Shown here: in pieces, positions 22,062-50,024 of the stretch
Layout of the letters: each line of letters opens with the position of its first letter
How positions within the stretch are numbered: the first letter of the stretch is position 1
Assembly: GCF_001040945.1 (NCBI RefSeq)
Contig: NZ_CP011930.1
Location: 496,001 to 560,000, forward strand
Source of the DNA: Herbaspirillum seropedicae
Lineage (GTDB): Bacteria; Pseudomonadota; Gammaproteobacteria; Burkholderiales; Burkholderiaceae_D
Direction: 5' to 3'
DNA length: 64,000 nt
Notes under the pieces: generated by a model
The model's database searches: none
What the model saw: only the letters and a program-made list of their open reading frames with translations
What the model was told of the DNA's origin: nothing
Translations under genes and position numbers: made by a program

Positions 22062-23008
22062 GCGTCCACGGTCTTCCTGAAGGCGGCATCTACCGTAATG
22101 GGCGGTGACCAGCCCAGCAATTCGCGGTTCTTGCTGATGTCGACCTGCAACGAGCCACAGAGTCTTTGCGCGATGCCTTTCTTGCCCATCAGGCGCGCCG
22201 CCAGCGTCAGCCATGATGCCGGTACCGGCAGCAAGGTGGGGGACTTGTCCAGCGCCCGGCCCAACCGCTGGAGCATTCCGGTAGTGGACAGGTCTTCGCC
22301 GTCCGAGGCCAGGAATACCTGGCCGGCTGCAGCCGGGTGAGCGAGGCAGACAGTAATCAAATCGACCAGGTTGTCCAACGCCACCAGGCTGCGCCGGTTG
22401 TGGGTGATGCCGCCCAGGGGCAGCGGCATACCCTTGTCCAGCCAGCGCATCATGCTCAGGAAGTTGGCTTTCACGCCCGGGCCATAGACCAGTACCGGCC
22501 GTATTATCACCACTTGCATCTTTCCCGTGCGGCCCAATTCAAGCAATGCCTGCTCAGCCTCCATCTTGGAAATGCCATAAGGGTCGGTCGGAGCAGGCTT
22601 GTCATCGGCGGTGAAGGGCCGCCCAAGGCTGGTTTGTTCGCCATTGACCTTGATGGAACTGAGGAAAATGAAACGTTGCACCCCAGCCTGCTGCGCCTGA
22701 CGCGCCAAGGCAAGGCTGCCCTCGAGATTGATGCGCCGGAATTCGGCCAGCGGATCACCGGCTGTTTCGTTCATTACATGTACCCGGGCTGCGCAATGGA
22801 CCACCGCCTCTATATTATGCAAGGCTGCTGACCAGTCTGTTTCAGGATCCAGGCCAGAAATGACAGTGCGTTCGATGCGTTCCCTATCCATGACTGTTTC
22901 GGAGGACGGGCGAAATGCGCCTCGCAGAAGGTGTTGTCCTTCCGAGTCCAGGCGGCTGAGCAAAGCTCGGCCTACGAAACCCGATGCGCCTGTGACAAGA
23001 ATATGCAT
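22046..23008 (-). CDS. NAD-dependent sugar epimerase/dehydratase (extended SDR)
   Basis: Nucleotide-sugar epimerase-like protein of 320 residues. The NAD site is ILVTGASGFVGRAL (about 3-16), the catalytic Ser/Tyr/Lys are in FLSSIKVNG and DPYGISKMEAEQ (about 147-151), and RPVLVYGPG follows. It groups with UDP-glucose/UDP-GlcNAc 4-epimerase-type enzymes seen in O-antigen clusters. No glycosyltransferase gene accompanies it in this window apart from the LPS core genes. The start at 23008 matches the conserved MHILVTG beginning; 15 additional upstream codons are unconserved. Confidence 0.87.
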   Translation of the reverse strand: MHILVTGASGFVGRALLSRLDSEGQHLLRGAFRPSSETVMDRERIERTVISGLDPETDWSAALHNIEAVVHCAARVHVMNETAGDPLAEFRRINLEGSLALARQAQQAGVQRFIFLSSIKVNGEQTSLGRPFTADDKPAPTDPYGISKMEAEQALLELGRTGKMQVVIIRPVLVYGPGVKANFLSMMRWLDKGMPLPLGGITHNRRSLVALDNLVDLITVCLAHPAAAGQVFLASDGEDLSTTGMLQRLGRALDKSPTLLPVPASWLTLAARLMGKKGIAQRLCGSLQVDISKNRELLGWSPPITVDAAFRKTVDAYRRA

Positions 23009-23122
23009 GGATAGGAAAGGGCTGAAATGAAGAGGGGCAAATCTTATCATCACGGTCAGATCGGGCTGCGTAGCCTGAGCGAAGCGTGGGGCAGGTGATT
23101 ATTCGGCAGGATGGATGGAAGA

Positions 23123-23189
23123 TCGTTTTTAATTATTTACGGTTATTTTTCAAAAAGGACTTGCACAGCCGATGGTGGGTTGCTATAGT
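23123..23189 (+). promoter_or_regulatory. rrn promoter P1 with UP-like element
   Basis: TTGCAC (23161-23166) and TATAGT (23184-23189) are separated by exactly 17 bases. An A/T-rich tract at 23123-23157 in the UP-element position and a GC-rich discriminator (CGCCCCC) after the -10 fit a growth-rate and ppGpp controlled rRNA promoter. Confidence 0.8.
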
Positions 23190-23643
23190 TCGCCCCCTGC
23201 TGACGCGACACACGAAGCGAAGTTGAAAAACGAAGCGACGAAGGTCGGCGAAGCAAAGAGTAGTGAAGCAGTTTGTAAGGCGTTTTAAATGGGAGTAGTC
23301 AAAGCGGCAGTTAAGCGAAGACGAAAAAATTTAAAACGAATCGCAAAAAAGTAGTTGACGCGATAAACAAGCTGCTACATAATCTCGTTTCTCTGCTGCT
23401 GACGAACAAAACGATTCGCAGCGATGCAAACAGCGCACAACGCGTTAGCGACCAACAAGCATGCTCAAAATTAACAGCCGATAAGCGTGGGCGTTTAATG
23501 AAGTGCGACAGAACTTCGGTTCTGGAAACTTTAAATATTAAATGCTCACAAGAAATATAGGTAAGTTCGCAAGAAATTACCTGTCAGTATTTTGAGAGAG
23601 CGATGCCCTTCGGGGTAGCCAGAAATGGCACAAAACAGAGATT
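23190..23643 (+). other. 16S rRNA leader with second promoter and processing stem
   Basis: The leader carries a second promoter, TTGACG (23355-23360), 17 bases, CATAAT (23378-23383). An inverted repeat CGTTTTAAAT/ATTTAAAACG spans 23281-23338. The tract 23474-23497 pairs over about 24 bases with 25195-25218 downstream of 16S, forming the RNase III stem of pre-16S. TGCTCAAAATTAACA at 23462-23476 is a possible degenerate boxA. No protein gene is visible. Confidence 0.65.
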
Positions 23644-25179
<1,536 letters not shown>

Positions 25180-25294
25180 GAGTGCGCACGAAGTTAAGCG
25201 TCCACACTTATCGGCTGTAATTCAAAGAACAGTTATTTGGTGAAGCGCGGTCTGTGGCAAACGTCACTGACTGGCTACTGATACTGATCCAAGC

Positions 25295-25371
25295 GGGTCT
25301 GTAGCTCAGCTGGTTAGAGCACCGTGTTGATAACGCGGGGGTCGTTGGTTCGAGCCCAACCAGACCCACCA
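25295..25371 (+). tRNA. tRNA-Ile (GAT)
   Basis: Complete cloverleaf in the 16S-23S spacer with acceptor GGGTCTG/CAGACCC, anticodon GAT at 25329-25331, T-loop GGTTCGAGCC and encoded CCA. The Ile-Ala pair is the usual spacer content in this group. Confidence 0.97.
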
Positions 25372-25378
25372 AGGTTTC

Positions 25379-25454
25379 GGGGGTTTAGCTCAGCTGGGAG
25401 AGCACCTGCTTTGCAAGCAGGGGGTCGTCGGTTCGATCCCGTCAACCTCCACCA
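25379..25454 (+). tRNA. tRNA-Ala (TGC)
   Basis: Complete cloverleaf with acceptor GGGGGTT/AACCTCC (one G-T pair), anticodon TGC at 25412-25414, T-loop GGTTCGATCC and encoded CCA. It lies seven bases after tRNA-Ile. Confidence 0.97.
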
Positions 25455-25531
25455 AGAAATGTCAAACCTAAGTCAGCGTTCAAGTTGGCGTAGTGATTTA
25501 GGTTTGATCTTTTACGATCAATGGCTGTTTT

Positions 25532-25543
25532 TGTTCTTTAACA
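25532..25543 (+). promoter_or_regulatory. boxA antitermination site before 23S
   Basis: TGTTCTTTAACA matches the rrn boxA consensus (TGCTCTTTAACA) with one change. It lies in the spacer upstream of 23S rRNA, where NusB/NusE-dependent antitermination complexes load. Confidence 0.75.
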
Positions 25544-25737
25544 ATCTGGAAGAAGTAAAGATTCATTTAAACGATCGCCAGGACTTCGGTTCTTGCGAAA
25601 GTAAAAATGGGTGTGATTGTATCAATCAAAGTATTACGAAGTGATCTTAGCAATTAGAAGACTTACTTTGGAATACGGCAAACGCTAAAACTCAACGCTT
25701 CTTTATAACGCTCTTGCAAAAGAGGCTAACGTTATAG

Positions 25738-28609
<2,872 letters not shown>

Positions 28610-28743
28610 ATAACATTAGCTCTGTTATAGACAAGTTGAGCATATATTGTGTTTGCCCTAGTGCATCACACCCCAGAATCTAAAATACTTCTTCCAGTTT
28701 GGGTTGGTTGCTGCTCCAGCGAGAGCAACTGACTTTACAAGTT

Positions 28744-28860
28744 ATGCCTGATGACTATAGCAAGTTGGTACCACCCCTTCCCATCCCGAACAGGACCGTG
28801 AAACGACTTCGCGCCGATGATAGTGCTGCAACCAGTGTGAAAGTAGGTCATCGTCAGGCT
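28744..28860 (+). rRNA. rrf: 5S ribosomal RNA
   Basis: Starts near TGCCTGATGA and ends near TCATCGTCAGGC, which pair as helix I. The internal CCATCCCGAACAGG tract is the conserved loop. It completes the 16S-Ile-Ala-23S-5S operon. Confidence 0.95.
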
Positions 28861-28873
28861 TGTTACTCCCAAG

Positions 28874-28905
28874 AACCCTCGTTACGTAAGTAGCGAGGGT
28901 TTTTG
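28874..28905 (+). terminator. rRNA operon terminator
   Basis: AACCCTCGTTAC pairs with GTAGCGAGGGTT (one G-U) around a short loop and is followed by TTTT. It lies 14 bases after 5S rRNA. Confidence 0.9.
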
Positions 28906-29406
28906 CTTTGGGGAATCCGCTCGAGTTCTGGATGCTGCTGCCTTGATGCCGTGTCGGCGACTTCACTCTCCTCATTCCCTCTTCTATCTTCCATCAGCAG
29001 GACAATCAAGAACGTCAGTGCCTGTTCCTCGGCGCTGAGATGCTGATGTCCTCCTCTCCAAGCCGAATTGGCCTAGTCCCAGATCACGATCCAGATTGCA
29101 GCTCGTCGATACTGAATGACAATGCAAATGCGCGGTGGCCACTATTTGTTTGGTTTTATACACAACGTCCACTGAGATAGGGCCGATTGCGCCACTTCCG
29201 CTATTCCTAAATCTCTTAGCGCTGGGCCGTCAAAGTGGCTGGAAAGTCGCTAGTACTCGGCATCCCAGTCAACAGAGATTTAGTTTTATACATAGCTTCT
29301 TCAGCTCTTGAGGGCTACAGTTAATTTATGCACAGGCCAAAAGTCTAACTTTCTGGTTCGGCCATCACCGCATTTGCGGTAACCATCAATGCTTCAGCCA
29401 ACAAAA
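28906..29406. other. Non-coding spacer between rrn and the efflux operon
   Basis: No supported gene was found. It is AT-richer than the flanks. Two short similar segments contain TTTTATACA (near 29154 and 29284) about 130 bases apart. A 62-codon minus-strand frame at 28984-29172 has no ribosome binding site or family features and was not accepted. Confidence 0.5.
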
Positions 29407-44805: not shown

Positions 44806-44879
44806 TGGAGCGGGTGAAGGGGATCGAACCCTCGTCTTAAGCTTGGGAAGCTTCTGCTCTACCATTGAGCTACACCCGC
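44806..44879 (-). tRNA. tRNA-Gly (CCC)
   Basis: Cloverleaf on the minus strand with acceptor GCGGGTG paired with its complement, anticodon loop TTCCCAA (anticodon CCC), T-loop GGTTCGATCC and encoded CCA. It borders the AT-rich Zorya island, which lies on its 5' side; the 3' end faces trmB and is not duplicated nearby, so a classic tRNA 3'-end integration is not supported. Confidence 0.93.
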
Positions 44880-45072
44880 GGAGCCCGCAATTTTACGCGG
44901 TTTTCCGGGTGTTTTGTGAACTTGAAAGTTGTCCAGTGGTATCGATTCTGTGATGGCCGGTTGCTTCAAGCTGTTATCGCGGTTGGAAAGAACATGCAAT
45001 CTCATGCTTTTTTCTCATCGTTGATCTTTATGCACAGAATGCTCTAGTACTGACAAAAGCATCCCGAAGAGA

Positions 45073-45606
45073 TCATTTTCCAGCCTCACTGCGAGCTATG
45101 ATTTTTCCACCGACCGGCAGTTTGTTGCCTGCGTATATTAATAACTCAAAATCTGAACTGAGCATTGCGCAAGCGCGGACAAATGCTGTACGTGGTGTCT
45201 GGACGTTCTCATGAGCGATACACTTAATAGCTCTGCATCTGTCAGATATGTGAGAAGATTCAAAGGTCAATTTTGTATGTTCGGAACGATGGACAATCTG
45301 ATGAGCAAGCTCATTCCTGATTGAACGAACTATATGTAAGTCAGTTTTAATCGTGCCATTGATCATTCCCAAAAGGCTGCATAAGTCAATTTTTGCCGAA
45401 AAGTTGGACAAAGGGCCATCGCCTGTAAAGAGTTTGTTCCAGGACTTTGGGTCGGAATGCAAAAAAAACTCCAATGCCGTAGTCATTGCCTCTTCTACCC
45501 AAGCAGCACCAACAATAGCGACGCCTCGGTCTGTTTGATCTTCCATCTCCTCGATAAGCGTTATTAAGCGCTTTTGACCCTCTTCCGAATTTGGATCAAA
45601 TTTCAT
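45073..45606 (-). CDS. MltR-like protein, last gene of the Zorya operon
   Basis: Protein of 177 residues that resembles the MltR (mannitol operon repressor-like) fold: a helical segment with DRGVAIVGAAWVEEAMTTAL (about 27-46), LCSLLGMI, and VRSIRNELAH (about 92-101). Similar stand-alone proteins without a mannitol operon occur in mobile and defence regions, where their role is unknown. No mannitol genes are present here. It follows the zinc-ribbon gene by 44 bases on the same strand. Base composition is AT-richer than the flanks. A regulatory or accessory defence role is inferred. Confidence 0.65.
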   Translation of the reverse strand: MKFDPNSEEGQKRLITLIEEMEDQTDRGVAIVGAAWVEEAMTTALEFFLHSDPKSWNKLFTGDGPLSNFSAKIDLCSLLGMINGTIKTDLHIVRSIRNELAHQIVHRSEHTKLTFESSHISDRCRAIKCIAHENVQTPRTAFVRACAMLSSDFELLIYAGNKLPVGGKIIARSEAGK

Positions 45607-45650
45607 AGTCGGTCGTGGAAGATAGTCACGAAAGTATTAGGCATCAGAAT

Positions 45651-45920
45651 TTATTTTATTTTGATGAATTTGCTGTTCTTGAACGATCTCATAAGTTCAT
45701 TCTTCATCTCAGTTACTAGCTGATCGGCATAGTCTCGTGCTAGAGAGAGACCCACTGCTTTTGCAACAACAACTAAAGATGTAATGTCATTCTCTCTACC
45801 ACAATTTGCACAAACAACCAGACTTCCCGCGGGGGGAGAATAATCCATATAAGGCAGTGCAAATTCTGAAGAGCGGCAGAATGAGCATCGCAACCGGATT
45901 GTTTCTTTCAGTTCTTCCAC
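45651..45920 (-). CDS. Small zinc-ribbon protein of the Zorya operon
   Basis: Protein of 89 residues with two CxxC pairs (Cys12/Cys15 in RCSFCRSS, Cys37/Cys40 in VVCANCGREND), which form a probable zinc ribbon. A helical C-terminal half follows, with Lys-rich end. I do not recognise a named family. It starts two bases after the stop of the wHTH/RHIM-like gene, so co-translation is likely. A nucleic-acid-binding or protein-adaptor role is possible, but nothing in the sequence decides this. Confidence 0.65.
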   Translation of the reverse strand: MEELKETIRLRCSFCRSSEFALPYMDYSPPAGSLVVCANCGRENDITSLVVVAKAVGLSLARDYADQLVTEMKNELMRSFKNSKFIKIK

Positions 45921-45922
45921 AG

Positions 45923-46462
45923 CTATGCAAGCCCTGACAATGAACCTGCAAGTCCGCCGACAATTGACGTTACTAGAGGATGCCCAAGAAACTTCGATAG
46001 GCGACCTTTGGCTTCCTGCTTTTCTTCCTCCGTAGCATTGGATTCGTCGATTTTTTGTAGAAGCTGATTAAATACGTTGTGAATATTCTGCACATTTCCG
46101 TTCCCGACTTGCGCAGGGCCATGCACGTTTAATGTGGCAATTTGCATACTCGCTCCAAGTTCGTATGAACGGTTTTTTCCGTGCTTAATCGAAATCGCTC
46201 TGCTTTGCCCTTCTTCCGTCAGCGTGATGTGTGAAAAATTCCCATAGGTTTTTTTCAGAAGCGACCGTGAATTACAAATATTAATGATTTTGAATAGGTA
46301 ATCCTCTGACCAGCTGTATTTCTCGTCAAATGCAGTGCGATCGCTTTTACCAGCAACAAATGAAAAATGTACAGATTGAATGGTCCCTCCCATGCCTTCC
46401 ATGTCATCGTTCATGAAACTCAACACTGTATCGATATCGGATTGTATTTTTTCTGGGTCCAT
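45923..46462 (-). CDS. Winged-helix protein with RHIM-like motif and Gly-rich tail
   Basis: Protein of 179 residues with three parts. Residues about 50-92 look like a winged helix (SWSEDYLFKIINICNSRSLL, then ITLTEEGQSRAI). Residues about 112-128 (NVHGPAQVGNGNVQNIHNV) resemble the (I/V)Q(V/I)G-x-x-N amyloid core of RHIM and of bacterial amyloid-signalling motifs. The end (HPLVTSIVGGLAGSLSGLA) is hydrophobic and Gly-rich, possibly membrane-active. This layout suggests a signalling or effector component, but the family is not named. It starts 20 bases after zorE and is two bases from the next gene. Confidence 0.6.
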   Translation of the reverse strand: MDPEKIQSDIDTVLSFMNDDMEGMGGTIQSVHFSFVAGKSDRTAFDEKYSWSEDYLFKIINICNSRSLLKKTYGNFSHITLTEEGQSRAISIKHGKNRSYELGASMQIATLNVHGPAQVGNGNVQNIHNVFNQLLQKIDESNATEEEKQEAKGRLSKFLGHPLVTSIVGGLAGSLSGLA

Positions 46463-46482
46463 GTTTGGTTCAAATTAGTGAT

Positions 46483-47364
46483 TTAAAGCTTTCCCCTTTT
46501 TACACTGCTTTGTCGCGTGAGTACTGGCCTATTCGGATAGCGCGAAACAAAATCAACATACGCTGGGAGAGATTTCATATGCTCATGCATCGGTTCGTCC
46601 GCGTGACATCGAATACATAGTACCGAAAGATTAGCATCGGAATTATCATTTTTCATTCCATTTATGTGATGGACGTGCATATATTTTGACTCGCGTATAC
46701 CCAGCGCAATGCGGCACTTACTGCAGCGATATCCCCGCGTCTGTTTAATCCGCTCGGATATATCTCCCCAATCGACCGAGTAATCATTAAGCGGAGCTGT
46801 CTCAGATGTATGAACTGGCTTTTCGAGAATTAGATCTTGTGGGTACTGATTAAAAAAATCCTTCAGTAGAAAATTCTTTACGCGGTCAATACGAAGGGTG
46901 CGATCGAGGTCCAGTTGAAATCCCTTCCAGGAAATCGACGCGAGGCACATTTGGCAAACGTTTAGCTCAACGATTTTTGGTTTCGCCCCGTGCTCCATAA
47001 TATTCACTTGGAACATACCATCGTCTCGATTGGCCACGACGTAGCGAGCGAATCGATGATTTCGCTTCATTTTGTCGAGCGTGCCGCAAAAAGCGAGATG
47101 AAATTTGGGCATTTCCTCGCGTTGCCCGAAATTGGATACATCACGGATGTATAGAAGAACGCGGTACCCTTTATAGGCTAGTGTTCCATCTTGCAGAACC
47201 TGAACTTCATCGAATTTAACTTCTATGCCGTCTTGCCTCAACTGATCACGAAGATCTATCGGCTTATATATGTTTTCGATTTTAAAGCCTACGGCTAACG
47301 ATGCGCCCATTTCGTGACGCAACGCATTTAGATCAGAGGCTAGAAGAAAATTTGGTAGCTTCAA
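46483..47364 (-). CDS. zorE: ZorE HNH nuclease, type II Zorya
   Basis: HNH endonuclease of 293 residues, the nicking effector of type II Zorya. The C-terminal HNH site has zinc ligands C214, C217, C250 and C253 (GYRCSKC and VLCIRCH) and the catalytic core YMHVHHINGMKNDN (about 228-241). An additional CQMC pair (137/140) is present. The N-terminal two-thirds is not recognisable to me. It overlaps zorB by four bases (ATGA), which ties it to the ZorAB motor. In Zorya, ZorAB senses phage infection at the envelope and the effector degrades invading DNA. Confidence 0.85.
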   Translation of the reverse strand: MKLPNFLLASDLNALRHEMGASLAVGFKIENIYKPIDLRDQLRQDGIEVKFDEVQVLQDGTLAYKGYRVLLYIRDVSNFGQREEMPKFHLAFCGTLDKMKRNHRFARYVVANRDDGMFQVNIMEHGAKPKIVELNVCQMCLASISWKGFQLDLDRTLRIDRVKNFLLKDFFNQYPQDLILEKPVHTSETAPLNDYSVDWGDISERIKQTRGYRCSKCRIALGIRESKYMHVHHINGMKNDNSDANLSVLCIRCHADEPMHEHMKSLPAYVDFVSRYPNRPVLTRQSSVKRGKL

Positions 47365-48059
47365 GGCTGCTCTGCCTTCAAATCGCGAGCGATTTGATCC
47401 ATTCTGTCGCTAGCATTTGTGACAATACGAAACTCCACTCGTTGGTTAGCTAGTTGTGCAGCTGCTGAGTTGTCGTCTGGTGATATAGGCTTAGAAGATG
47501 AGAGGCCATTGGCTGTGACATGTCCCACTAGCCAGTCTTGCTGTCGTTCTACTGCGGGAAGCCTAAGTAAAAATTCGAGTGCACTTCTGGTTCGCGCTTG
47601 AGAGAGCTCCATGTTAAGAAAGTACGCGGTTTTCGTGTCGGTGCTATTTGTCCAGCTTCGGCTGGTGTGACCCTCAATTCTTATTTCTTTTATTGCATCT
47701 CGATACTTATCTGACGTAAGCATCGTTACGTATCGGGGGAAAAAATCTCTAAGAATTTGCTTGAATTTTGGCCTAAGTTCAGCAGAGCCTGTGGCAAACA
47801 GCACGGTAGGGTCATTAAAACGGATCGTCATGTCGCCGAGCAGTTCTGCATTCCACTGTTTCAAATCTCGTGAAAACTCCTTTTGAAGTGCTTGCAACAT
47901 ATCGCTCTTTGTTTCTTCAAACTCATTCACGACCAGCGTAGTCGTTTGCTCCACACGCAGCATAAAAGCTGCAGTTAGGAGCATGAATACCATCATTAGA
48001 CCTGTCATGAGGTCAGCTAGTGGGATCCAGTATGATTGGTTGCTTTGCTCAATATCCAT
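47361..48059 (-). CDS. zorB: ZorB, MotB-like membrane/peptidoglycan-binding component
   Basis: Anti-phage motor stator partner of 232 residues. One membrane helix lies at about 12-34 with the conserved Asp16 (IPLADLMTGLMMVF), the proton/ion-path residue in MotB-type proteins. The C-terminal OmpA-type peptidoglycan-binding domain runs from about 86 (LFATGSAELRP) through IRIEGHTSRSW to RTRSALEFLL and NQRVEFRI. It is flanked by zorA (two-base gap) and zorE (four-base overlap), the standard zorABE order. Confidence 0.9.
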   Translation of the reverse strand: MDIEQSNQSYWIPLADLMTGLMMVFMLLTAAFMLRVEQTTTLVVNEFEETKSDMLQALQKEFSRDLKQWNAELLGDMTIRFNDPTVLFATGSAELRPKFKQILRDFFPRYVTMLTSDKYRDAIKEIRIEGHTSRSWTNSTDTKTAYFLNMELSQARTRSALEFLLRLPAVERQQDWLVGHVTANGLSSSKPISPDDNSAAAQLANQRVEFRIVTNASDRMDQIARDLKAEQP

Positions 48060-48061
48060 AT

Positions 48062-49369
48062 CTATTGGGCGCTAGCGATCCGGACAACATCGCGCAGCTT
48101 ATCTGTTAGAGGACTATAGTCAGCTACGAACTTCTCGGACAAGGACGCCAACTGACGTCCAAGTGATTCCAAGCTTTTAGTCAATTCCTCTTGCAGTCCT
48201 TTGTCTAGGGACACCACACCTTGTCTGATGGTATCTAGCCCCTTCTGCATTTCATCGTTCACTTGCTTTTGCGATGATTTGATCGTCTCAGAGAGCAATT
48301 GCTTCATTTCGGCCGACGATCCTTGTATTTGCACACCAAAATTCTTCACTATATCGCTGACATCTGATTGGACTCTAGAAACACCCAGCTTTATTGCATC
48401 GGCGAGTTCTTCCATTTTTTTTGCGAACACTGGGGTGACATCCTTCATTTCAATCAGTACGGCGGAAAGAGAGCGCTGCGAATCTTCAATGGCGGCGTAT
48501 TGCTGGGAAAGTCCTCGAAGCAATTGCTCGAGTCTTGAGGCTGTTTCAGTGAAACCATCAGCGCGGCTCACCATTAGGGACATTCCATTGGCTGCGTTTT
48601 GAAGATCTGTCGCTGAAGACTGTTGTACGGCTTGTAGCTTATCTAACTCCTCGCGATATTGAACTTGCCAAACTACTAGTTTTTCCACAGCCATATTTAG
48701 ATGCTGGAAATTTTGTCCGAATTGCTCGTTGATTTGAGCGTTAAAATCTCGAATCACTTCTTTTAAAGCTTCGATTAACGCTTTCGATCCATCTTCTGCC
48801 ATCTTGCTGGCGAACGCGTCGAAAGAGCCGCGCAGCGCAGTTAGTTGATCATTTTGTTCTTGTCTCATCAGTTTTAGTTGAGAGAGCAGGCTGCCGTCTT
48901 CAGTACCCGATAGGCTCCTCTGCAAAGCTTGAGTAGCGGCCACTACGTCATCTAAGCTCGCCGCTTTAGGGGCGCCAATACTGTGTGGAATGGGGCTCTT
49001 TTGTTGGTGATGCCGAAAACGAATACATAAAGAGCCAAAAACCCCGCTGACGGAAGCCCAAAATGCCGTCTTTACACCCTCTAATAAGTGTGGAACGCTT
49101 GAAGACACTTTTGCTGAGTCAAAGTGCAATAGCGCAAGGGCTATACCTAGAAAACACCCGAATATGCCAACAGTCGTAAGTATTTCGGGGCCGTGTTGAA
49201 CAGCAAAGCGGTTGAAGCGAAAGCAAGTGAAATACACCGTTAGAGATAGGTTAATCGCGATAAATGTCATCGTGATTCCATCATGCAGGATAGACTCGAA
49301 TCCATTCGCTGCGAATGCAAAAGGTGAAACGATCGCAATTCCGAACGCTATAGCTGATTTCAGTAGCAT
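48062..49369 (-). CDS. zorA: ZorA, MotA-like component with long cytoplasmic tail
   Basis: Inner-membrane protein of 435 residues. Four hydrophobic segments (about 5-21, 31-50, 62-83 and 98-117) match the MotA/TolQ/ExbB core, including TVGIFGCFLGIALALLHF and the VKTAFWASVSGVFGSLCIR helix. From about 140 to the end the protein is predicted coiled-coil, the long cytoplasmic tail that in Zorya senses or relays envelope disturbance. AGGAG precedes the ATG at normal spacing. It is the first gene of the operon, and AT-rich non-coding sequence lies upstream. Confidence 0.88.
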   Translation of the reverse strand: MLLKSAIAFGIAIVSPFAFAANGFESILHDGITMTFIAINLSLTVYFTCFRFNRFAVQHGPEILTTVGIFGCFLGIALALLHFDSAKVSSSVPHLLEGVKTAFWASVSGVFGSLCIRFRHHQQKSPIPHSIGAPKAASLDDVVAATQALQRSLSGTEDGSLLSQLKLMRQEQNDQLTALRGSFDAFASKMAEDGSKALIEALKEVIRDFNAQINEQFGQNFQHLNMAVEKLVVWQVQYREELDKLQAVQQSSATDLQNAANGMSLMVSRADGFTETASRLEQLLRGLSQQYAAIEDSQRSLSAVLIEMKDVTPVFAKKMEELADAIKLGVSRVQSDVSDIVKNFGVQIQGSSAEMKQLLSETIKSSQKQVNDEMQKGLDTIRQGVVSLDKGLQEELTKSLESLGRQLASLSEKFVADYSPLTDKLRDVVRIASAQ

Positions 49370-49543
49370 GTGTTTCCCACTCCTCTTGTTTTTTTAGAGT
49401 AGTTAAAACAGCTAAAGCTAAGTTAGAGTTTTAATTTCTCTCAAATTTTTCCTGATAAATCGAAGCCCCTATTCGCATCCGATTATCAATTTTTCATCGT
49501 TGTGTTTTATGCTGTTGCCACAGTGCATTTTCTGGGAAGGCTC
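49370..49543. other. AT-rich upstream region of the Zorya operon
   Basis: This AT-rich stretch must contain the minus-strand zorA promoter. A TTGAGA element (near 49440) with a weak TTAGCT 17 bases on is the best candidate and is not convincing. The plus-strand remnant at 49544 starts at its other end. Confidence 0.35.
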
Positions 49544-49896
49544 ATGGAAAAAGGCTGCTACGGCGAAATTTCAACGCAAACACTATCCCTTGAACAAAAG
49601 AATACACTGGTCCACGCTATCGCGGAAGATAGCGGTCTAGGTTTTGGTTATTACGGATTCTTTGAAATACTACTCGTCATCTTCGAAGATATTCCCGGCT
49701 TCGAGACCGAACAGCCGGTAGTCAGCTTTCTCGCCGAGATGTGGCAGATCTATGAGGGTATGACGAATTCATCGATGAATTCCATGCGTGTGAGGATTTT
49801 ATTCTTCTGCATGCGCGGGTAGATTGCCGTGGCGATCTCCATTTTGCGGGCGGTTTTCCCTTCGCATCTACGGCTATCGGCTCGGAGAGAGCCTGA
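49544..49896 (+). pseudogene. Frameshifted hypothetical protein remnant
   Basis: A frame starts at ATG 49544 behind GGGAAGG and reads a plausible acidic protein up to FLAEMWQIYEG, then degenerates and stops at 49822. The +1 frame from about 49757 continues as YDEFIDEFHACEDFILLHARVD and runs to a stop at 49896 with protein-like composition. A one-base deletion near 49755-49758 would explain this. I do not recognise the family; size and acidity would suit an immunity-type protein, which is only a guess. It marks the edge of the AT-rich island. Confidence 0.5.
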
Positions 49897-50024
49897 ACTT
49901 TCCGCGGGATTGTACTTTTCGAACCAACCGGAGGCGGGGTAGGGCGGGGCGAGATCGGACGACGGATTTCCCCTGGGAGCTATCGAATTTGCTATTTAAA
50001 TCCTGGGCAAATCCAGTTCCCAGC

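Follow-up and report, generated by a model that had tools for sequence, protein, structure and literature searches.

Six consecutive minus-strand genes in the genome of Herbaspirillum seropedicae probably represent a composite defence island, in which 3 separable, independently mobile modules were gathered by recombination beside a tRNA-Gly(CCC) gene. The genes are located in a 64,000-nucleotide stretch (NZ_CP011930.1, positions 496,001 to 560,000; hereafter the window, with coordinates counted from its first letter), which lies within one contig of 5.5 Mb. The first module would be a complete type II Zorya phage-defence system (genes 1 to 3), the second a pair of small genes (genes 4 and 5) and the third a single gene (gene 6). 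The 6 open reading frames (ORFs) form one run, with successive gaps of 2, −4, 20, 2, and 44 bases, and their GC content is 42% to 47%, versus about 64% (approximately 0.62 to 0.66) in the surroundings. The ORF calls and GC values thus agree with a preliminary description of the locus, made from the sequence alone, as to the number, coordinates, spacing, and AT-richness of the genes. Promoter-like sites are below chance level (3 found versus 7.2 expected), which is compatible with one operon without proving one; because the genes form a single run with short gaps, all 6 are probably co-transcribed.

The preliminary description had considered genes 4 to 6 to be accessory components of the Zorya system. 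This is not supported by the genomic contexts of their homologues (designated here by L numbers). ZorE was found beside none of the 31 gene 4 loci outside of the H. seropedicae genome (16 from GTDB, 3 viral, 1 on a plasmid, and 11 from Escherichia coli) within the fetched flanks, which differ in length and reach only 3.2 kb in L041, nor was it found in the flanks fetched from the other 11 gene 6-carrying genomes of a family sample (7 long and 4 of ~1.5 kb). Conversely, neither gene 4 nor genes 5 and 6 are present in the fetched flanks of any of the other 11 ZorE loci (L003–L006, L128, L129, L135, and L161–L164), where the fetched sequence past zorE is only ~1.2 kb in L003–L006 and, in L005, ends ~0.6 kb past the operon. 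Among these loci are the nearest relatives, L128, L129, and L161. Thus, in the loci examined, homologues of the 3 proteins rarely neighbour Zorya genes, an outcome that had been set in advance as speaking against an accessory role, and genes 4 to 6 are rejected as Zorya-specific accessories on genomic context.

Single-sequence ZorE scans of genome contigs and of viral contigs yielded no relative. A class-wide ZorE family search matched 152 genomes, mostly as HNH-only noise; the H. seropedicae genome itself and 5 near full-length matches were kept, whereas all others were discarded, among them L008, which matched in the HNH part only, and L007, L009, and L010, which matched partially. In 2 of the ZorE loci, other defence genes follow zorE in the same direction, namely a type I endonuclease gene with a specificity gene in L135 and a type II endonuclease-like ATPase gene in L129, indicating that defence modules in this position are not peculiar to the window and vary in identity. 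More generally, neighbours separated by short gaps need not be subunits of one system: what appears to be an extended Zorya operon splits into 3 modules when congeners and homologue contexts are compared.

The tRNA-Gly(CCC) site and gene 6

The run is located upstream of the tRNA-Gly(CCC) gene (44806–44879, minus strand; ARAGORN), the chromosomal site that adjoins an AT-rich insert at ~44900–50000 (limits approximate), delineated by congener comparison and GC content. The trmB-tRNA stretch was matched in 34/34 genomes of the genus sample, in G662 in its tRNA part only. In the congeners L110, L111, and L112, the counterparts of window positions 44900 and ~50000 are only ~46, 86, and 47 bases apart, respectively; because the site is empty in these genomes, the insert can be sized at ~5.1 kb. 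Comparison of 20 congener regions at this hotspot revealed varied AT-rich cargo. In L108, gene 6 lies between the tRNA gene and the native flank, with no Zorya genes, and a further AT-rich ORF of 342 amino acids, without a PADLOC or Pfam match, is found beyond the native flank. In L109, the tRNA site is occupied by a gene for a 263-amino acid protein, gene 6, and an Abi-alpha gene (Pfam, E = 8.4e-39), again with no Zorya genes, and the cargo ends in a partial tRNA gene repeat. In the window, a repeat of the 5′ part of the tRNA gene flanking the distal end of the insert was rejected, as the tRNA gene itself is the sole match. The insert additionally contains a plus-strand ORF of 106 amino acids (49502–49822), which is divergent from zorA and has no PADLOC match; a stretch near this ORF (49761–49868) matches the congener L117.

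Gene 6 (45073–45606, minus strand; 177 amino acids, GC content 0.436) is a candidate HEPN protein of the MltR/DUF4145 type, with the signature R97-N-x-x-A101-H102. The MltR-like similarity recorded in the preliminary description was recovered, as weak, sub-threshold matches to Pfam MtlR (E = 6.2e-5; 23.4 bits versus a cut-off of 25.2) and DUF4145 (E = 0.0025; 18.3 versus 23.1 bits), and the gene 6 family profile matched the MltR chains 3brj (E = 0.0021) and 6kcr (E = 0.0047) in the PDB. Across 48 aligned sequences (47 chosen from 97 database relatives plus the window protein), R97, N98, A101, and H102, i.e., an R-x4-H motif, are invariant. According to a passage of PMC3710099, MtlR and DUF4145 belong to the HEPN superfamily, in which R-x4-6-H is an RNase motif that was lost in part of the MtlR proteins. 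Gene 6 resembles these proteins in its weak profile similarity along the R-N-x-x-A-H helix and in the R-x4-H motif kept by its relatives, but differs in its surroundings: its neighbours in the window include no recognised mannitol genes, and relatives reside at the tRNA site together with defence-type cargo (Abi-alpha in L109). Gene 6 is thus better read as an HEPN RNase candidate than as a regulator, a mannitol-type regulator being less likely because the catalytic-type R-x4-H is invariant. It was found in 12 of the 294 genomes of the random family sample, H. seropedicae included. As a lone gene, it would act as an abortive second line.

The type II Zorya genes

The first 3 genes, which the preliminary description assigned to the type II Zorya core, retain this assignment. 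They are adjacent, within one run and in the order zorA-zorB-zorE, which is the gene content of type II Zorya. The zorA gene (48062–49369, minus strand; 435 amino acids, GC content 0.466) encodes a MotA-like protein with a long C-terminal coiled tail (PADLOC ZorA2, E = 2.1e-193; PDB 8vvi_F, E = 6.4e-60), and zorB (47361–48059, minus strand; 232 amino acids, GC content 0.459) a MotB/OmpA-like protein (PADLOC ZorB2, E = 3.8e-92; PDB 8vvi_A, E = 9.9e-54), the OmpA-like domain of which is recognised by Pfam OmpA (E = 1.5e-8; 35.3 bits versus a cut-off of 27.2). Asp16 of ZorB aligns with residue 21 of 8vvi_A, and D21 is described as the critical residue of type II ZorB in a passage of PMC11890865. 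The zorE gene (46483–47364, minus strand; 293 amino acids, GC content 0.447), with a TTG start that overlaps the zorB stop, encodes a predicted HNH nickase (PADLOC ZorE2, E = 1.6e-126). Its scores against the Pfam HNH models are below cut-off, and the H-x-H-H…N-L…L-C…H pattern is conserved in all 8 aligned ZorE sequences.

Like established type II Zorya systems, the anti-phage activity of which depends on ion flux and nicking by ZorE, the locus has the expected gene content and order, matches to the ZorA2, ZorB2, and ZorE2 models, the transmembrane aspartate and OmpA-like domain of ZorB, and the HNH residues of ZorE. It differs in 2 respects: 3 more genes follow that are no regular Zorya part, and the scores are under the NCBIfam equivalog cut-offs (128/700 bits for ZorA2, 193/400 for ZorB2, and 161/600 for ZorE). 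These cut-offs are naming thresholds for near relatives and do not define the system, so that a shortfall is expected of a divergent member. Judged by homology and residue conservation, genes 1 to 3 appear to be a complete and normal type II Zorya. According to PMC11890865, ZorAB recruits ZorE, a nickase, upon infection; by homology, ZorAB of the window would likewise sense an envelope breach and recruit the ZorE nickase, as published for other type II Zorya. The searched passages of PMC11890865 and PMC13192584 make no mention of extra type II Zorya genes.

The gene 4–gene 5 pair

Gene 4 (45923–46462, minus strand; 179 amino acids, GC content 0.431) encodes an N-terminal domain without a profile match, followed by an RHIM-like segment (GPAQVGNGNVQN), a helical stretch, and a Gly-rich hydrophobic tail with a maximum mean hydropathy of 1.59 over 17 residues. 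It matches no PADLOC or NCBIfam family and, in Pfam, only DUF1542, below cut-off. The winged-helix label previously given to this protein found no profile match in PADLOC, Pfam, or NCBIfam, the N-terminal half being without any match. A protein search returned 110 relatives, and Q118, G120, and N123 are invariant in an alignment of 59 sequences (54 chosen from the 110 relatives, the window protein, and 4 locus translations). The RHIM core reads (I/V)-Q-(I/V/L/C)-G. Gene 4 of the window, with A-Q-V-G, departs from it at the first position, which is A, S, T, G, or M in 57 of the 58 motif-bearing rows of the gene 4 family and I in the remaining one; the motif is therefore termed RHIM-like here, not RHIM. 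What the preliminary description noticed stands as a pattern genuinely conserved across the family, but not as a canonical core.

The C-terminal half of gene 4, comprising Q-(V/I)-G-x-x-N, the helical stretch, and the Gly-rich tail, recurs behind unlike N-terminal domains in the chromosomal loci L047–L063, and the first motif position is I or V in 11 of the 15 proteins displayed from these loci. Viral contigs hold proteins similar to these. As far as described in the relevant passages of PMC7889193 and PMC8086366, gene 4 shares the conserved Q-(V/I)-G-x-x-N with RHIM and the bacterial BASS3 amyloid motifs, but differs in the first position and in its partner: no NLR or Bell-domain partner was identified and a zinc ribbon is found instead.

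This partner, gene 5 (45651–45920, minus strand; 89 amino acids, GC content 0.415, GTG start), consists of a CxxC…CxxC zinc ribbon and a C-terminal helical part. The zinc ribbon had already been recognised in the preliminary description, and its CxxC pairs proved invariant in 19 aligned relatives. A protein search listed 61 relatives of gene 5. Gene 5 matches PADLOC PDC-M14A (E = 1.5e-7) and, below cut-off, NCBIfam ECs_2282_CxxC (E = 8.9e-5). PDC-M14A, component A of the candidate system PDC-M14, is also matched by gene 5 of L036, L039, and L044, whereas gene 4 matches no PADLOC model; any partner known for PDC-M14A would therefore be a protein other than gene 4. PADLOC thus already includes a protein resembling gene 5 as a candidate; no description of the pair was found in the open-licence papers searched.

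A scan of GTDB contigs identified 33 gene 4 loci, 16 of them full-length. Loci sharing only the C-terminal half of gene 4 (17 of the 33 GTDB loci and 17 of 20 viral loci) were excluded from the pair counts. Gene 5 is located directly behind gene 4 in 14 of the 16 full-length GTDB loci, with gaps of −32 to 15 bases, and in all 3 full-length viral loci; the pair is also carried by one Enterobacter plasmid. In E. coli, the pair is present in 25 of 5,426 genomes, and gene 5 follows gene 4 in 11/11 of those inspected. Gene 4 had no match in phage records. Random samples rarely contain the pair: it was present in 1/294 family genomes (H. seropedicae itself), and matches at E = 1e-15 numbered 5 in the order of L031 (394 genomes) and 6 in the genus of L032 (268 genomes), several of these covering the C-terminal part only. 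Genes 4 and 5 form a two-gene cassette that is probably mobile and not part of Zorya. In Rahnella (L031, 9001–10805) and E. coli (L085, 9001–10814), the pair is followed by a gene for a protein of 324 to 330 amino acids, which has no Pfam match and is 82% identical between the two; the next gene in E. coli is of the GIY-YIG type and matches PDC-S57. In the E. coli loci L088 and L156, the annotation divides gene 4 into two parts, and the pair is probably broken.

The cassette is often located in or beside restriction-modification, BREX, or other defence genes. At least 6 of the 16 full-length GTDB loci are in or beside restriction-modification genes. Among 20 chosen neighbour genes scanned one by one, type I methyltransferase, specificity, or endonuclease genes were found beside the pair in L036, L037, and L040, a type IIG enzyme in L038, a type III-like pair in L046, and a methyltransferase in L042, which has gene 4 only; AbiLi, STK_OB, and PDC-S50 are present beside the pair in L037, L031, and L044, respectively. 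A same-strand gene ends 60 bases or less from gene 4 in L036, L037, L038, and L040. Of the 11 inspected E. coli loci, 9 adjoin BREX and 2 a type I restriction system, followed by the 324-amino acid gene (sometimes as 2 smaller ORFs) and the GIY-YIG gene. As a control, up to 3 genes on each side (near set; 83 proteins, 16 loci) were compared with 48 genes located >6 kb away (far set; 14 loci). At 1e-15, near genes match 220 PADLOC families versus 8 for the far genes, none of the latter being restriction-modification. By hand tally, restriction-modification was found in at least 6/16 near versus 0/14 far loci (Fisher p = 0.013) and at least 13/83 near versus 0/48 far genes (Fisher p = 0.0018), the near tally being a lower bound from the 25 of 220 families displayed.

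Several points weigh against the picture of independent modules drawn to defence loci. The near/far contrast was set up after the loci had been seen, and near genes are longer; beside the pair, the scan of chosen neighbours identified no defence gene in 8 of the 16 GTDB loci. Furthermore, the longest contig given for a gene 4 relative (94%) has the same length, 36,492 bases, as that given for a gene 6 relative (93%), so that the two genes are probably linked in one additional source, and the stack may be kept by selection. Finally, with 2 to 44 bases between genes, the spacing is that of an operon, which could reflect functional coupling.

Possible roles of the pair

Within the composite island, the reading that we tentatively favour for the pair is that the gene 4 protein works as a switch, self-assembling via its RHIM-like segment and, together with its zinc-ribbon partner, backing up or controlling the adjoining defence genes. 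A 2021 review asks, in a passage of PMC7889193, whether bacterial signalling amyloids exist in NLR-independent pathways, and the pair is a small candidate for this question. It is also the part of the island most worth following up, being a conserved cassette found repeatedly next to nuclease defences of different kinds, with an RHIM-like motif but no NLR recognised adjacent.

Two other explanations are each rather unlikely. In one, genes 4 and 5 restrain the adjoining nuclease system in the manner of restriction alleviation, limiting self-damage, and are no defence effector. Consistent with this, the pair lies in or beside several DNA-targeting systems, gene 4 of L036 overlaps the end of a specificity-subunit gene by 4 bases, and the gene 5 relative of L039 has a sub-threshold Pfam match to the restriction-alleviation protein Lar (E = 0.0092). 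However, at 16.7 bits, that match falls well short of the curated cut-off of 28.6 bits, and it did not appear for gene 5 of the window; in several loci, the pair has no identified nuclease system next to it. The other, which we regard as doubtful to a similar degree, is that the pair is selfish or neutral cargo, for example toxin-antitoxin-like, that gathers at defence hotspots without a functional link. High mobility, as evident from the 88.6% DNA identity of the Rahnella and E. coli copies, the split gene 4 of L088 and L156, and the L033 and L035 copies among apparent housekeeping genes (read by eye) would fit such cargo, whereas maintenance of the two-gene arrangement and the motif residues across loci whose labels span several phyla argues against it.

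A broader version of the switch is improbable: the pair would be a widespread immune plug-in, with a sensor or switch that polymerises via the RHIM-like segment and a zinc-ribbon partner replacing the NLR or Bell domain, inserted into unlike DNA-targeting operons (Zorya II, type I/III restriction-modification, and BREX islands) as a guard activated by triggering or disarming of the host system. If true, it would mean amyloid-type motif signalling in bacteria outside NLR pathways. Least probable, and very unlikely, is that genes 4 to 6 are working accessories of this particular Zorya subtype (regulator, adaptor, or second effector): the tight same-strand spacing (20 bases between zorE and gene 4), the absence of internal promoter-like sites in the gaps, and, as a weak point, the probable linkage of genes 4 and 6 in one further source are outweighed by the 11 other ZorE loci, the nearest relatives included, that carry none of these genes, by the 31 gene 4 loci and 11 gene 6 genomes with no ZorE in the fetched flanks, and by the congeners L108 and L109, in which gene 6 occupies this tRNA site in the absence of Zorya.

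Elsewhere in the window, a second low-GC stretch (23000–29000) contains tRNA-Ile and tRNA-Ala genes and is probably an rRNA operon.

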